From an uncultured Cellvibrionales bacterium (GTDB lineage: Bacteria; Pseudomonadota; Gammaproteobacteria; Pseudomonadales; Porticoccaceae): a DNA stretch of 64,000 nt. Within the stretch, counting starts at the first letter, position 1, and the number at the start of each line of letters is the position of its first letter. The notes beneath the pieces were generated by a model that saw only the letters and a program-made list of their open reading frames with translations, did no database searches and had not been told where the DNA came from. The stretch lies in NCBI GenBank assembly GCA_913031145.1, contig CAJWCO010000009.1, forward strand, positions 1-64,000. The letters run 5' to 3'. The translations under genes and the position numbers were made by a program. Shown here one piece after another: positions 20,616 to 52,941 of the stretch.

Positions 20616-21686
20616 TTAGGATGCTCCTGCCGAATCCGAATCCGAATCCGAATCCGAATCCGAATCCGAATCATTTAGATCGAGACGTCGTGCACATATG
20701 TTTGCGCTGTCGCCCATCTGTAAATCAGCGTAATCAGTCAGTGTATCGGCTAACACGGCGAGTAATTCAACGTGCGATTCGTCTACCCAGGCGGCGCTCG
20801 CGACTGATCCCAGGGATTTACCCTGAGCGTTACTAATGGGCGTTCCGGGCGGTGGCAAGGTCGACAGAGGACAGCTCAAGTGCTGCATACGGCGTTTGAC
20901 CGCCCCACGATAATGCGCCCGCGCCACGATTTCTTGCCCCGTATAGCACCCTTTCGAAAAACTGATAAAACCCTGATGATCGAGATTGAGCATTTGTGGT
21001 ATGTAGGTATCCGTTGTCGCCTCGGTGATATCGGCAAAGCCGGTGCGTAGGATGAGAAGATCCGTTAATTCTTCACCTACGGGCGTCACCAACCCCTCGA
21101 GTTTTTTAATGACTGACACACTATCTTCCGGTTTACACGTAATCGAAAAATGGTCAACGCCCTGAGTTTGCAATGCAAAAATAGGCTCCAAGATACGAGC
21201 CTGTTTTTCGGGCAGGGGTTGATCGCAAAGTGGCTTCACAATGGTGCCAGTATGAGGGCCTGCTAGGATAAAGGTATCGAGATCGGCGCTTAGATCGTTT
21301 ATTTCCAGTTTAAAAAAGACCGCATACTTTTTAAGGCTGGCAATGGCGAGGGCTGTAACCGAGGAATGCACGTCTAGGATCACATCGTCATTATCGCCAG
21401 CATGCGCAGAAAAGACGAAAATGACGCGTCCTTTGGGTGTACAGTGAGCACCATTAATCACGTGCGATGTCGTTACTTTTTCCATATCGCAGGTGACCTG
21501 GCCTTGCAGGAATCGAATACGATCGGGTCCTTTGAGCTGAATATAACCTCGGGTGCGAGGGCCGAGAAGCGGTTTTTGCAACAACGCCTTGAACTGTGAG
21601 CGTTTTTCACCAAGCGAACGTATTCGCCCTTTGTTAATGTCGTCAAAACTGGGATGGTGGCTTGGCAACAGTGTTTTGAAAGTCAT
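20616..21686 (-). CDS. ygfZ: Folate-binding protein YgfZ (Fe-S cluster/tRNA modification factor)
   Basis: This 356-residue GcvT-like, tetrahydrofolate-binding protein supports some Fe-S enzymes, including MiaB. The family signature KGCYTGQEIVARAHYRG contains the essential Cys at 247. AGGGA precedes the ATG at good spacing. The C-terminus has an unusual tail: seven consecutive Asp-Ser pairs (residues 339-352) followed by AGAS, encoded by a perfect hexanucleotide repeat. E. coli YgfZ is about 30 residues shorter. The gene is divergent from sdhE, the classical arrangement. Confidence 0.93.
   Translation of the reverse strand: MTFKTLLPSHHPSFDDINKGRIRSLGEKRSQFKALLQKPLLGPRTRGYIQLKGPDRIRFLQGQVTCDMEKVTTSHVINGAHCTPKGRVIFVFSAHAGDNDDVILDVHSSVTALAIASLKKYAVFFKLEINDLSADLDTFILAGPHTGTIVKPLCDQPLPEKQARILEPIFALQTQGVDHFSITCKPEDSVSVIKKLEGLVTPVGEELTDLLILRTGFADITEATTDTYIPQMLNLDHQGFISFSKGCYTGQEIVARAHYRGAVKRRMQHLSCPLSTLPPPGTPISNAQGKSLGSVASAAWVDESHVELLAVLADTLTDYADLQMGDSANICARRLDLNDSDSDSDSDSDSDSAGAS
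20631..20672. repeat. Hexanucleotide tandem repeat (7 x CGAATC) in ygfZ
   Basis: There are seven perfect CGAATC units (GATTCG on the coding strand) near the 3' end of ygfZ, encoding seven Asp-Ser pairs. The unit length is a multiple of three, so slippage would change tail length without breaking the frame. Confidence 0.97.
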
Positions 21687-46915: not shown

Positions 46916-49402
46916 TTAGAGTAAATCGTCAGGCAACGGGTTTTGATTCCTTGCACCGCCCGCTTTTCGGTCTTGCGGTAACTCTGGTACATTTTCACTT
47001 TTGAAGTACTCAAAGATACCGTCTTGGTCCGGTTCCAAACGCTGGCCTGTGGAGCGGTCGATTTTGACTCGAACTAAGCCGCTTGGCTGTTCGCGCGTGA
47101 CTTCTGGCAGGTCTTTTAATGCAGAGGATAAAAATTCTATCCAGATTGGCAATGCAGCAGACCCTCCATACTCGTTGTTGCCAATAATCGAGTTATCGTC
47201 GAAACCTACCCAAGCAGTGACTGCTAAGTGAGGTGAATACCCTGAGAACCACGCGTCTCGTGGTCCATTTGTTGTCCCTGTTTTACCAGCCAAATCGTTG
47301 CGGTCGAGAACTTTTGCCTTAACCCCAGTGCCGCGTAGAATGACGTCTTTCAGAATCGAATCAATTATAAAAGCTGTGCGGTCATCCAAGACTTGGACGG
47401 CAGGATTAAGGTCATCAGGGCGCGTTTTCTGGAGGGCTAAACGGAGAAGTCGTTGACTGTTTCGATCGGACTCTGATACCTGACTTAGGCTGAGTTCGGC
47501 AAACAAGTCTTCGAGCGCCATATCGATGTTATTGTCTTTTCCCGCATTGTTATCAGCGCTCACGGGGCTCACCGTCGGAGGATTTGTGGAGTAGACCACG
47601 TTGCCTTTTCGGTCGACAATTTTGTCGATAATGTGGGGATTTACCCGATACCCGCCATTGGCGAACACCGCATAGCCTGTGACGATTTGTAGGGGCGTAA
47701 GTGCGTGGCTACCGAGGGCGAGAGAGAGATCGAGCGGCATTTCGCTGGTGTCAAAACCAAAGTCCTGGAGACCCTCGAGCGTCCGGTCTATTCCGAGGCG
47801 TCGCAATAAGCGGATAGAGACGAGATTTCGCGACTGGTAAAGCGCTTCGCGCAAGCGCGTGGGACCGTAGAATTTCCCACCATCATTTTCAGGCCGCCAT
47901 GTATCCTCCAGTTTGGCATCGTTGAAAACAACCGGTGCGTCGTTGAACAGGGTTGCAGCGGTAAATCCACTGCGCAATGCTGTGGCATAAATAAAGGGCT
48001 TGAAATTTGAGCCTGGTTGGCGGCTCGCCTGAGTTACGCGATTAAAATTGCTCTGATTATAATCGAATCCACCGACGAGCGCGCGAATTGCGCCATCATT
48101 CGGGGCCAGCGCTACCACAGCACCCTGCGCTTTGGGTAATTGCGAGAGCTGCCAGCCTTGCGTGTCTGTGCGTAACACCCGAATGAGGTCACCCGGCGCG
48201 AGTAATTGGCTAGCAGATTCGATAGGGTCTGATACTGAGTTGATGGTTTTATAACGTCGAATTTCATTGACGCCATCTTGCCATTTAAGGGTATGCAAGC
48301 GGTCTTCGCCGTCGATTAAAACTACATAATTCTCTTCTACCTCAGACACAATCATAGGCTGTAAGCCGGCGTATACCCGCGTTTCCTTCAGGACATCAAG
48401 CCATTGTGTTACATCAATCGCACGTCTTTCAGGGCCGCGATATCCGTGTCGGCGGTCGTACGTTAGAATCCCTGATTGCAATGCCTTGACTGCTTCCCGT
48501 TGCATCTGCGAATCAATAGTTGTGATCACGGTGTACCCTTCGGTATACGCTTTTAGGCCAAATTTCTCGATGACTTCTTGGCGCACCAGTTCGGCTGCAT
48601 AGGCAGCTTCAAGTTGTGATATGGACCCATGATAAGAGGCTTGGTCAGGCTCGCTTATTGCATCTTGATACTCGAGTTGATCGATGTTTCCAAGCGATAG
48701 CATACGCCCCAAAATCCAATCGCGCCGCAGCAAAGCTCTTTCCGCATTAGCGATAGGGTTGTACTTTGAGGGGGCCTTGGGGAGACCTGCGATCATGGCT
48801 GTTTCTGCAAGGCTCAGTTGGTCTAGCGACTTTCCGTAGTAAACTTGCGCTGCCGCGCCAACACCATAAGCACGATTGCCCATGTAAATTTTATTGGTGT
48901 AAAGCGAGAGTATCTCTTGCTTGGTCAGCTCGTCCTCGATGCGCAATGCCAGCAAAATTTCGTTAAATTTACGGGTAAACTCTTGCTTTTTGGTCAGGAA
49001 AAAATTGCGTGCCACCTGCATGGTGATTGTACTTCCGCCACTGCGTATTGACCCTGTACGAGCTAACTCTAAAGCGGCCCTTGCGAGCCCTGAAATTGCA
49101 ATACCGCCGTGTTCAAAAAAACTGGCGTCTTCAGCCGCTAAAAAAGCGTCCACCATGGCGTCGGGAATCTCGTCAAAGGACACCGGATTCCGCTTTTTCT
49201 CTCCAAATTCAGCGATCACTTGGAGATCCTGTGAGTACACGCGCAGAGGAATTTGCAGTTCAATTTCTCGAAGCTCTTCGACCGACGGTAACTTCGGGCT
49301 CAAATAGAGGTAAAGGCATGATGCGATGATCAAACCACTCCCTACCGATAGAAGTGTCGAGAAGATTAAAACTATCCCTAATTTTCTATATTTTTCAGAC
49401 AT
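46916..49402 (-). CDS. mrcA: Penicillin-binding protein 1A
   Basis: This 828-residue bifunctional peptidoglycan synthase has an N-terminal membrane anchor (about 9-35), a GT51 transglycosylase domain with EDASFFEHGG and GGSTITMQVARNFFL, an OB-like insert, and a transpeptidase domain. Its catalytic motifs are SRQPGSNFKPFIY (SxxK), SRN and KTGTTNGPRDAWF. The ATG at 49402 is preferred to one nine codons upstream. It is divergent from the pil locus, as in Pseudomonas and Vibrio. Confidence 0.95.
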   Translation of the reverse strand: MSEKYRKLGIVLIFSTLLSVGSGLIIASCLYLYLSPKLPSVEELREIELQIPLRVYSQDLQVIAEFGEKKRNPVSFDEIPDAMVDAFLAAEDASFFEHGGIAISGLARAALELARTGSIRSGGSTITMQVARNFFLTKKQEFTRKFNEILLALRIEDELTKQEILSLYTNKIYMGNRAYGVGAAAQVYYGKSLDQLSLAETAMIAGLPKAPSKYNPIANAERALLRRDWILGRMLSLGNIDQLEYQDAISEPDQASYHGSISQLEAAYAAELVRQEVIEKFGLKAYTEGYTVITTIDSQMQREAVKALQSGILTYDRRHGYRGPERRAIDVTQWLDVLKETRVYAGLQPMIVSEVEENYVVLIDGEDRLHTLKWQDGVNEIRRYKTINSVSDPIESASQLLAPGDLIRVLRTDTQGWQLSQLPKAQGAVVALAPNDGAIRALVGGFDYNQSNFNRVTQASRQPGSNFKPFIYATALRSGFTAATLFNDAPVVFNDAKLEDTWRPENDGGKFYGPTRLREALYQSRNLVSIRLLRRLGIDRTLEGLQDFGFDTSEMPLDLSLALGSHALTPLQIVTGYAVFANGGYRVNPHIIDKIVDRKGNVVYSTNPPTVSPVSADNNAGKDNNIDMALEDLFAELSLSQVSESDRNSQRLLRLALQKTRPDDLNPAVQVLDDRTAFIIDSILKDVILRGTGVKAKVLDRNDLAGKTGTTNGPRDAWFSGYSPHLAVTAWVGFDDNSIIGNNEYGGSAALPIWIEFLSSALKDLPEVTREQPSGLVRVKIDRSTGQRLEPDQDGIFEYFKSENVPELPQDRKAGGARNQNPLPDDLL

Positions 49403-49536
49403 CGTCACTGCAGACCCCAATGCAAACATTTTTCATTATAGATGGTTGAGAATGTGAAGTGCATCATTTGCACACAACTCGCCGCCTGATACTGTTGAAG
49501 AAGTGTTATTGAGCGCTTGAAGGGACGTTGTGCACG

Positions 49537-50739
49537 ATGAATGTATGGCCTGTTTTTAAAAGACTCAAGCACACGAATCTCGGTATGGTGATTTCGCATG
49601 CGACAATTCGAGTCGTGGAAATAATGCGGGAAAACAACGACTTTTGCGTTGTTTCGCACGGCTTGTTGGCTATTCCCTCGACAGCGCGCTCGCCAGAGTT
49701 CGAGGGTAATAAGGACTTTTTGTGCAAACTGATCGACGATATGCTGCGATTGTTAGAGAGTCAATGCACGCGCGCAACCTTGGCCGTATCAGAAAGCGGT
49801 TGTGTGATTAGACATGTCCAGGTGCCGAGTGAACTGACGGGTCATCAACTGCACGCGGCTTTGCACGTTGAGGCAGCTCAATATTTCCCGTTTATGATGG
49901 ATGACGCCGCATTCGATTACCGTTGTTGCGCTGACGCCGATGTGCCTAAGACCCTGCAATCGGTCACTCTAGCGGGCTGCCGCCAACAAAGCTTAGTCGG
50001 GTTGAATACAGCGCTCGAAGCTTCAACCTTGAACGACTATGCGTTGGATGTGGAGGATTTGGCTATTGAGCGTGCGTACCGCATGTTGCCGTGCTTTCAG
50101 AACGCCAAGACCGGAGGTGCAGAGGGAATTATTGACGTTGCCGATCGTTATTTAAAGGTACTTGTGGTGTTTAACGGCAAGCTTCTCTACAGTCGAAAAA
50201 CAGTCGTCGAGCAAATGCAGGCCGACGACCGCCCAGTCCAATTACGGCATCGCGCGTCGGTGAAAAATAAACTCATGAGTGACTTCCCCTCATGCCCAGA
50301 TCTTGAAGACACGATTATTGCCGCGTGGCAGTTATATCAATCGGGAAGTCCTGACGTTGGGGTCGGGCAACTGTATATTGTTGGTGCTTTTTCTCCGATG
50401 ACTGAGGTCGTTCGCAGGGGCCGGCTTGACTGGGGGGTCAAGGTAGAAATTGTCGAGCCATTGTTGGGATTAACTTGGTCTTTGCCAAAAGCACCTGATT
50501 GGATACCCGCAGCGCGCACGAGTCCGTTGGTCGCTGTCGGTTTGGCGCTGCATTTATTTGACCAAGGTCGACAAATTAACCTATCGCCTTGGCGAACGCG
50601 CCACAGAGAAAACGTGCGGCGCGCTTGGTGGAGCGGCTTCGCGGGTGTCGTTATTGGAGCCTTTGTAATCTTAATCACATGGCATCATTGTTTTAGGTGG
50701 CCAGATTACCATCGCAAAGGATCGTTATGCGGCACTTGA
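49537..50739 (+). CDS. pilM: PilM-PilN fusion, frame broken inside the PilN part
   Basis: Residues 1 to about 340 resemble PilM, the cytoplasmic actin-like protein of the type IV pilus alignment complex (HVEAAQYFPF, VEDLAIERAYRM). The PilM nucleotide-site residues are lost: the usual GIDIGSTS reads GMVISHAT, and the second phosphate loop reads IIDVADRYLK. Without a stop, the frame runs into INLSPWR (residues 347-353), the PilM-binding N-terminus of PilN, and into the PilN membrane helix. It then leaves the PilN frame and stops at 50739. The rest of PilN continues in the +1 frame. The ATG at 49537 is preferred to a TTG at 49528. A divergent, probably inactive or repurposed PilM is likely. Confidence 0.8.
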   Translation: MNVWPVFKRLKHTNLGMVISHATIRVVEIMRENNDFCVVSHGLLAIPSTARSPEFEGNKDFLCKLIDDMLRLLESQCTRATLAVSESGCVIRHVQVPSELTGHQLHAALHVEAAQYFPFMMDDAAFDYRCCADADVPKTLQSVTLAGCRQQSLVGLNTALEASTLNDYALDVEDLAIERAYRMLPCFQNAKTGGAEGIIDVADRYLKVLVVFNGKLLYSRKTVVEQMQADDRPVQLRHRASVKNKLMSDFPSCPDLEDTIIAAWQLYQSGSPDVGVGQLYIVGAFSPMTEVVRRGRLDWGVKVEIVEPLLGLTWSLPKAPDWIPAARTSPLVAVGLALHLFDQGRQINLSPWRTRHRENVRRAWWSGFAGVVIGAFVILITWHHCFRWPDYHRKGSLCGT

Positions 50740-51097
50740 GACGGCCCAAATGAGGCCGCTCAATGTCAATCAAGAAGGCGTACTTTCGAGTGCGAGTGTC
50801 GCCGATAGACAGCGAATAGCCGGAGCATCGCAGCGTCGCAACGAATTGTCCAAGTTGCTTTTTGAGCTGGCTTCAGCAGTTTCCTCTAATGTATATTTGC
50901 AATCTTTTCAGCGTCGGGGGCAACGCATCGAATTAAAAGGGGTGTCGCAATCCCGAAAGTCATTACAGTTTTTAAAGGTGAACTTGGCGCGCTCGCCGAG
51001 TTATGAAGCGCCGCGCGTGGTTGAGATGCAAACGGTATTACAAGGGGGTAGGGACGCACATACCTTTACTCTTGTGGGGCGAACTCGCAAACCTTAA
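50675..51097 (+). pseudogene. pilN: PilN C-terminal part in shifted frame
   Basis: This frame (open from 50675, after a TAA at 50672-50674) continues PilN with LGGQITIAKDRYAALE, a coiled coil, and the beta-rich tail NVYLQSFQRRGQRIELKGVSQS. Joining it to the preceding fusion needs a skip of one base between about 50675 and 50736. Either a single-base insertion broke pilN, the sequence has an error, or there is a programmed shift. An ATG at 50750 could start a truncated product without the membrane helix. Confidence 0.75.
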
Positions 51098-51165: not shown

Positions 51166-51717
51166 ATGTTTCGCTACGGGGTATTTACGCGTGATCTGCT
51201 GGAGATCTTCTACTGGTCATTTGCCGCGCGCACAGCGAGTTTAATATGCCTATTCGGTTTTATTTTTTTCGTTGGCTATGGCGTGCTCATACATGACCTG
51301 CAAGCGCAGCTTGCACAGAGTCACGATGCATTGTCAGCACTGCTCCAAAAGCAGAACGACGGCACGCCTGACCGATTATCTAAAACGCCGGTTAATGCTT
51401 TGGGATGTCTGTCGCTAACTGGTGGGAATGACATCGTCGTCGAGCAGCTAGTGCAGTTCGCTGAGCGGGCAGGGCTCAGTGTTAAGGCGCTATCCGTACA
51501 CGCATCTAGTTCTTTCGGCGTGTATCAAAAAACGCCGATGACTGTTCTTTTTTCGGGTCATTTCCATCAGTTTTTCGCCTATATCAGTCATGTGAGCCGA
51601 TCAAACCATTTTGTCGTCGTTGACGATTTCTCCTTTTTTCGGGAAACAACGGACCCCCTGATGATCGATGTTAACGTCGTAATGTATAGTTACGCGCCGA
51701 CGCAGCTTAAAAAATGA
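51166..51717 (+). CDS. pilO: PilO-like pilus assembly protein
   Basis: This 183-residue protein has one N-terminal transmembrane helix (about 23-43), a short coiled coil and a periplasmic ferredoxin-like domain with GHFHQFFAYISHVSRSNHFV, which matches the PilO fold. PilO pairs with PilN in the inner-membrane alignment complex. GAGGG precedes the ATG. Its stop overlaps the pilP start. It is shorter than the usual ~207 residues and is assigned largely by position. Confidence 0.78.
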   Translation: MFRYGVFTRDLLEIFYWSFAARTASLICLFGFIFFVGYGVLIHDLQAQLAQSHDALSALLQKQNDGTPDRLSKTPVNALGCLSLTGGNDIVVEQLVQFAERAGLSVKALSVHASSSFGVYQKTPMTVLFSGHFHQFFAYISHVSRSNHFVVVDDFSFFRETTDPLMIDVNVVMYSYAPTQLKK

Positions 51718-52232
51718 AAGCGTTACACCGCAAGGGTGTGCTGGAGGTGTTGACCGTGCTGTGCGTGCTATTTTCGTCCGCGGCAGGTGCACAAGAGCAG
51801 CCAAATCATGAGGAAGCGGAGAAAGATGTTTCTCGAGGTTTGAGAGATTCTGAGTTGCAACAAACCATCACTCATCCAGTGGGTGATTTAAACTATATTC
51901 GTGACCCTTTCGAGCGGTTTGTACCTGTCGAGCCCGATGTGGAAACGTTGACATCAGGTGGGCGAGTTTTGTCTCTTGAAGCGCTCATTGCAGAAACACA
52001 TGCAGATGACCTTGTTTTGGTAGGAAGTCTATTTTATCGGAGCCGCCGATGGGCGCTATTCCAGACAGTTCATGGCAAAACTTATCGCGTGGGCGAAACG
52101 CAAGTGGCGAGTGAGGGGGGCGCGAGAGTGGATTTCCTCGATGCGACATCCGTTACTCTTTCGATACCGGTTTTCGATGAATCAGGGAATTCTTACCTGC
52201 GTGAGCGGACGTTGTCGATGCGCTATCGCTAA
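51714..52232 (+). CDS. pilP: PilP-like pilus assembly protein without lipobox
   Basis: This 172-residue protein has the conserved YIRDPFE segment and the C-terminal beta-sandwich of PilP (LVGSLFYRSRRWALFQT, YRVGE). PilP normally is a lipoprotein linking PilNO to the PilQ secretin; here the signal peptide ends in AAGAQEQ with no Cys, so it would be a soluble periplasmic protein. It overlaps pilO by four bases. No pilQ follows. Confidence 0.8.
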   Translation: MKALHRKGVLEVLTVLCVLFSSAAGAQEQPNHEEAEKDVSRGLRDSELQQTITHPVGDLNYIRDPFERFVPVEPDVETLTSGGRVLSLEALIAETHADDLVLVGSLFYRSRRWALFQTVHGKTYRVGETQVASEGGARVDFLDATSVTLSIPVFDESGNSYLRERTLSMRYR

Positions 52233-52299
52233 GGTTTTTTCACCATCACGCCTGTTCAAAACTCGCTCAAAAAGCGCGCTCGTTAGCGATTGTTGAGGT

Positions 52300-52331
52300 G
52301 GTCGGAGCGCACAACGCGCGACCGTTTTTTT
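52300..52331 (+). terminator. Rho-independent terminator after pilP
   Basis: GGTCG pairs with CGACC, with an inner CGC/GCG extension and a small bulge, followed by G and seven T residues. It lies where pilQ would start in relatives and separates the pil genes from aroKB. Confidence 0.7.
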
Positions 52332-52364
52332 CGTTGGCGACCGCGGCCATTATCACGATAAAAG

Positions 52365-52393
52365 ATGAGAAGCGAAGCGTCAAAGGCTATAAT
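52365..52393 (+). promoter_or_regulatory. Candidate sigma-70 promoter of aroKB
   Basis: ATGAGA (4/6), a 17-base spacer and a perfect TATAAT lie 26 bases before the aroK ATG and after the terminator. aroKB therefore seems to be transcribed independently of the pil genes. Confidence 0.55.
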
Positions 52394-52419
52394 GCAGGAT
52401 TAGTTAAGTAGAGTAGACG

Positions 52420-52941
52420 ATGACAGGTTCACACATATTTTTGGTCGGCCCCATGGGGGCAGGAAAATCCTCCCTAGGGAAGGCGTTAGCGAGTACTCTT
52501 GAGCGTGCATTCTTCGACGTGGATAAAGAAATAGAGCAACGAACCGGGGCCGATATTCAGTGGATATTTGATATGGATGGTGAGCAAGGATTTCGTGTGC
52601 GCGAATCAAAAATATTTTTAGATTTGGTGAACGAAGAGAGCGCCGCAGTAATCGCGACGGGCGGCGGTTTGGTTTTGGAAGAAGAAAATCGCAAACTGCT
52701 AAAGCGCAGTGGCGTAGTCGTTTACTTGTCGGCCAATAAAGAGCAATTGTATGAACGCACGAGACGCGACAAAAAGCGACCCTTGTTGCAAGTAGAAGAC
52801 CGAGCAAGTGTGATCCAACAATTACTGACGATTCGTGATCCGCTGTATCGCGAGGTGGCCGATATCATTTTCCCCTCGGGGCGAGGGCAGTTGTCGAGAG
52901 CCGTGAAAAAGCTGGCTGAAAAGCTGGCCGAATTTGAGTAA
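52420..52941 (+). CDS. aroK: Shikimate kinase
   Basis: This 173-residue kinase phosphorylates shikimate in aromatic amino-acid synthesis. The P-loop is GPMGAGKSS (8-16), the shikimate site is FFDVDKEIEQRTG and the GGG motif is ATGGG. It is followed by aroB after 73 bases, the usual aroKB pair. Confidence 0.95.
   Translation: MTGSHIFLVGPMGAGKSSLGKALASTLERAFFDVDKEIEQRTGADIQWIFDMDGEQGFRVRESKIFLDLVNEESAAVIATGGGLVLEEENRKLLKRSGVVVYLSANKEQLYERTRRDKKRPLLQVEDRASVIQQLLTIRDPLYREVADIIFPSGRGQLSRAVKKLAEKLAEFE

Follow-up and report, generated by a model that had tools for sequence, protein, structure and literature searches.

Organisation of the pilM-pilN locus

The window (the whole stretch of 64,000 nucleotides analysed here) is contig 9 of genome G000, an assembly of 2.2 Mb in 56 contigs that is 97% complete. 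It harbours a pil operon between mrcA and aroK with the following features:

46916–49429, minus strand: mrcA (PBP1a), divergent neighbour used for synteny and trees
49537–50739, plus strand: pilM running in frame into the first part of pilN as a fusion (frame 1), matching PF11104 and ending in a TGA
50554–50595, plus strand: fusion junction LFDQGRQ-INLSPWR, with the CAA at 50563–50565 in the column of the sister-genus pilM TAA stop
50675–51097, plus strand: remainder of PilN in the +1 frame, a coiled coil and the periplasmic domain, identified by PF05137 and alignment
50683–50703, plus strand: zone of the +1 frame change in PilN, within the transmembrane helix, where the summed alignment score against five PilN relatives peaks
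51166–51717, plus strand: pilO, intact frame (PF04350, E = 1e-6)
51714–52232, plus strand: pilP, intact frame but very divergent (PF04351, E = 0.0016, which misses the curated cut-off; assigned also by operon position)
52233–52419, plus strand: gap of 187 bp at the site that pilQ occupies before aroK in other family members, with no pilQ between pilP and aroK here
52420–52941, plus strand: aroK, downstream neighbour, which adjoins mrcA directly in congeners without the pil operon

Frame 1 stays open between 49528/49537 and the TGA at 50737–50739, and the PilM part runs without a stop into the PilN peptide INLSPWR (50575–50595), as the initial annotation had described. This part covers positions 1–338 of 340 of the PilM_2 profile (PF11104, E = 8e-28, 97.7 bits, cut-off 27), while its score of 76 against NCBIfam TIGR01175 is below the cut-off of 133. 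The +1 frame (frame 2) is open from just past the TAA at 50672–50674 to the TAA at 51095–51097 and its product matches PilN (PF05137, E = 5e-11), therefore it is no chance ORF, and the earlier claim that the rest of PilN continues in this frame, between the TAA at 50672 and the TGA at 50737, holds. Both frames are open between 50675 and 50736, and scoring of hybrid translations against the five PilN relatives placed the switch at about 50683–50703. The INLxPWR peptide, the membrane helix and the periplasmic domain of PilN are accordingly all present in the window but split over two frames at this point. An Rfam search of the window found no RNA families. All eleven collinear neighbour genes that the window has in common with the congener G001 are intact in the window. 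Elsewhere in the window, a perfect 6-base tandem repeat of seven copies (20630–20672), the length of which could be variable, encodes a Ser-Asp tail with which a YgfZ-like protein (20616–21686, minus strand) ends.

Origin of the fusion

Only two congeners, and no other assembly of the window's own species, came out of the search for named relatives; the same fusion was found in both of them and so is present in three genomes. In G013 (MAG FRAM18_bin288) it forms one intact frame of 566 aa, so that the PilM and PilN domains (PF11104 and PF05137) lie on one GspL-like chain and PilN is encoded without a shift from the INLLPWR peptide through the membrane helix to the periplasmic domain, whereas the chain of the window is not intact. 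It is a single frame in G001 (MAG UBA2618) too, where pilN contains a stretch of N (L002:1089–1403) flanked by the short repeat GATGCCG; this stretch is probably a scaffolding gap with no real sequence missing, since G013 aligns without it.

In the sister genus g19, represented by G085, the operon lies at the same site and pilM and pilN share one frame, but two proteins are encoded: pilM ends with a TAA and the ATG of pilN is the next codon (SFE-stop-MTS-INLLPWR). PilP is canonical in G085 and very divergent in the window. The junction segments are equal in length in the sister genus (LALRSFE-stop-MTS-INLLPWR, with LAMRSFE in G085), G013 (LALRGDGVVGD-INLLPWR) and the window (LALHLFDQGRQ-INLSPWR), and as the codon count of the junction equals that of the stop and start arrangement in g19, loss of the stop explains the fusion. 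With pilM and pilN already in frame, losing one stop codon suffices to give a single GspL-like chain.

That an assembly error joined two separate genes could be considered because pilM and pilN are separate in most of the class, but with the same fusion and the same junction length in two other assemblies of other species this is so improbable as to be negligible. The comparison of the locus in close relatives, proposed with the initial annotation, instead shows that the subclade has inherited the fusion. The fusion reported initially as a surprise thus stands, but it is not peculiar to the window.

In a survey of the family, a stop or frame change was found between pilM and pilN in the other genomes except G015, and in 370 genomes of the class every junction-crossing match among the matches listed contained at least one stop. 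G015, which belongs to another genus, has a fused pilM-pilN frame of 554 aa. It was not counted as support, as it is far from the window's genus in the mrcA tree and its pilQ is frame-split, so that its fusion either arose independently or is an artefact of indels. The pilQ of G015, a 10-contig assembly, is split over at least two frames (L119:3583–5691, minus strand), which suggests indel errors or decay. Long open-frame values pointing to many more fusions in g19 were likewise dropped, the G085 sequence having separate genes with an in-frame TAA.

PilM motifs and constraint on the fused gene

In the alignment the actin-like nucleotide-binding motifs of the window PilM are degenerate: phosphate-1 is changed from GLDISSS to GMVISHA, phosphate-2 from DIGATML to DVADRYL with the Asp retained, and the GG motif from LAGGV to IVGAF. 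The statement that both phosphate-binding loops had become unrecognisable is borne out, apart from this Asp. Since phosphate-2 and the GG motif are degenerate also in the fused PilM of G001 and G013, the degeneration at these two motifs is not specific to the window.

Between G001 and G013, NG86 gave a dN/dS of 0.25 in the PilM part; the values were 0.18 at the PilN N-terminus and 0.64 in the PilN C part, compared to 0.26 (about 0.25) for pilO and 0.05 for mrcA. The value of the PilM part is well below neutrality, while the PilN C part is short and indistinguishable from neutral. With PilM and pilO both at about 0.25 against 0.05 for mrcA, the fused gene in the G001/G013 branch is under some, although relaxed, constraint.

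State of the pilus system in the genome

The pilC gene of the window's genome (G000:C2:24406–25728, corresponding to L112:1907–3229) carries a single in-frame TAA at codon 128; it is otherwise open, with homology resuming in the same frame after the stop, and is intact with 416 aa in G001 and G013. The only secretin of G000 lies in a type II secretion (T2SS) cluster on contig C6, hence no pilQ secretin is present in this genome, and no PilT was found, as there are only two full T2SSE matches, one in the same cluster on C6 and one PilB-like on C4. In G001 no secretin and one full T2SSE match were found. Compared with a diderm type IVa pilus, G000 consequently lacks PilQ, PilT and an intact PilC, while the frames of pilA, pilB, pilD, pilO and pilP remain open. 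In G001 and G013 the gene set comprises pilB, pilC, pilD, the fused pilMN and pilO, with pilA and pilP seen in G001.

Loss of the pilus within the genus

In a fourth congener, G007, pilM is interrupted by three stops and pilB is broken, and 10 of the 14 genomes of the genus gave no pilM match. In all three pilM-less genomes examined (G010, G006 and G004), mrcA and aroK are direct neighbours, showing a clean excision of the operon. When only the window, G007, G001 and G013 represent the genus in the mrcA tree they form one clade; with G010, G006 and G004 added, the genomes without pil genes are found among those with them, some of the forks being weak. This interspersion suggests more than one loss in the genus. 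The genus would be placed near SAR92 in the Porticoccaceae and is presumably marine; nothing was found in the literature under its name.

Two further observations were made in these genomes. A T2SSE-family ATPase gene in G013 (G013:C131:5214–6251) has an internal TAG and is possibly another decaying secretion or pilus gene. A Cys-rich repeat protein with dozens of CxxC-like units is encoded next to coaE in G001 (L113:4858–5556), where it has no Pfam match, and in G013 (L114:4713–5534), and was not seen at the coaE-adjacent place in the window's genome.

Cause of the frame shift

The initial annotation had left open whether the shift is due to decay, error or recoding. The shift is private to the window's genome, G001 and G013 being unshifted, and together with the TAA in pilC and the absence of pilQ and pilT this makes decay the favoured cause, so that the PilM-PilN fusion gene has quite likely become a pseudogene, as part of a type IV pilus system that is being lost. 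As pilA, pilB, pilD, pilO and pilP are still open, any decay is recent. One point does not separate decay from error: a good match of the +1-frame PilN to its Pfam family is equally expected if the shift is a sequencing error.

Such an error, in a fusion that is real and functional as the intact gene of G013 would be, is the most obvious competitor, for indel errors do occur in MAG assemblies and the pilQ of G015 seems to carry them. The unshifted congeners, the well conserved +1-frame PilN and the intact pilO and pilP would all fit an error. We nevertheless regard it as rather unlikely, because a second, independent lesion, a nonsense codon, is present in pilC of this genome and none of the other neighbour genes comparable with G001 is interrupted, which means that two errors, both hitting pil genes, would be needed in a genome where pilQ and pilT are gone and whose related species are losing the pilus system. 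A programmed shift by ribosomes or polymerase, giving the full fused protein, might be read from the stretch open in both frames (50675–50736) and the conserved downstream frame. Known +1 frameshift sites such as prfB act at the stop codon, however, while the homology here switches at 50683–50703, away from the frame 1 stop at 50737; the relatives encode the protein without any shift, a shift in one genome offers no conserved signal, and the stop in pilC is separate. Recoding is left unsupported and highly improbable.

The decay reading can be put as a series of events; their order, a working fused product in the relatives and a mutational origin of the shift, as opposed to an assembly error, are inferred. 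The ancestor of the subclade would have had pilM and pilN in the same frame with one stop between them, the loss of which fused both into a GspL-like chain in which PilM supplied the cytoplasmic domain and PilN both the membrane helix and the periplasmic domain. This protein may have served a reduced type IV pilus machine, perhaps already without PilQ and PilT. Later, in the species of the window, the periplasmic domain of PilN would have been cut off by a shift of one base within the membrane helix and pilC would have acquired its nonsense codon, leaving the pilus system presumably dead.

Comparison with known systems and meaning for the genus

A PilM-PilN fusion is recorded for the type IVa pilus of the monoderm Clostridioides difficile in the review PMC6916266. 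The view that the two proteins are normally separate is thus correct for the class surveyed here, but a fusion had nonetheless already been described. As described, both cases agree in that a single polypeptide of a type IVa pilus system comprises PilM and PilN, but the former is in a Gram-positive and the latter in a lineage of Gammaproteobacteria without any specific relationship to it, where the gene is broken in the window's species. The fusion is independent of the one in C. difficile and is an occurrence in Gammaproteobacteria, for which the parts of the literature consulted contained nothing specific on a PilMN fusion.

According to the reviews PMC4471445 and PMC3815138, the PilMN complex is the orthologue of GspL of type II secretion, with PilM resembling its cytoplasmic and PilN its periplasmic part. 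GspL likewise is a single protein, with a cytoplasmic domain similar to PilM, a periplasmic domain similar to PilN and one membrane helix, but the families in the window are PilM_2 and PilN, and the gene is located in a pilMNOP operon at the mrcA-aroK site and not in a gsp cluster. With the C. difficile fusion and this orthology on record, the fusion adds a new case to a type already known, and the break in the frame is gene decay of the ordinary sort.

A bolder proposal is that the fused PilMN of G001 and G013 functions within a pared-down pilin machine without PilQ and PilT, the window holding the same machine just broken. We consider this doubtful; if it works, the machine of these two congeners would perhaps be a pseudopilus of the inner membrane that has taken on a new role. 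Seen as a whole, the genus presents a graded series, from separate genes via a fusion without pilQ and pilT and the first lesions to rubble and clean excision, and is as such a compact example of type IV pilus loss. Should the PilQ-less set of the congeners be functional, it would represent a minimal pilin machine of a bacterium with an outer membrane.
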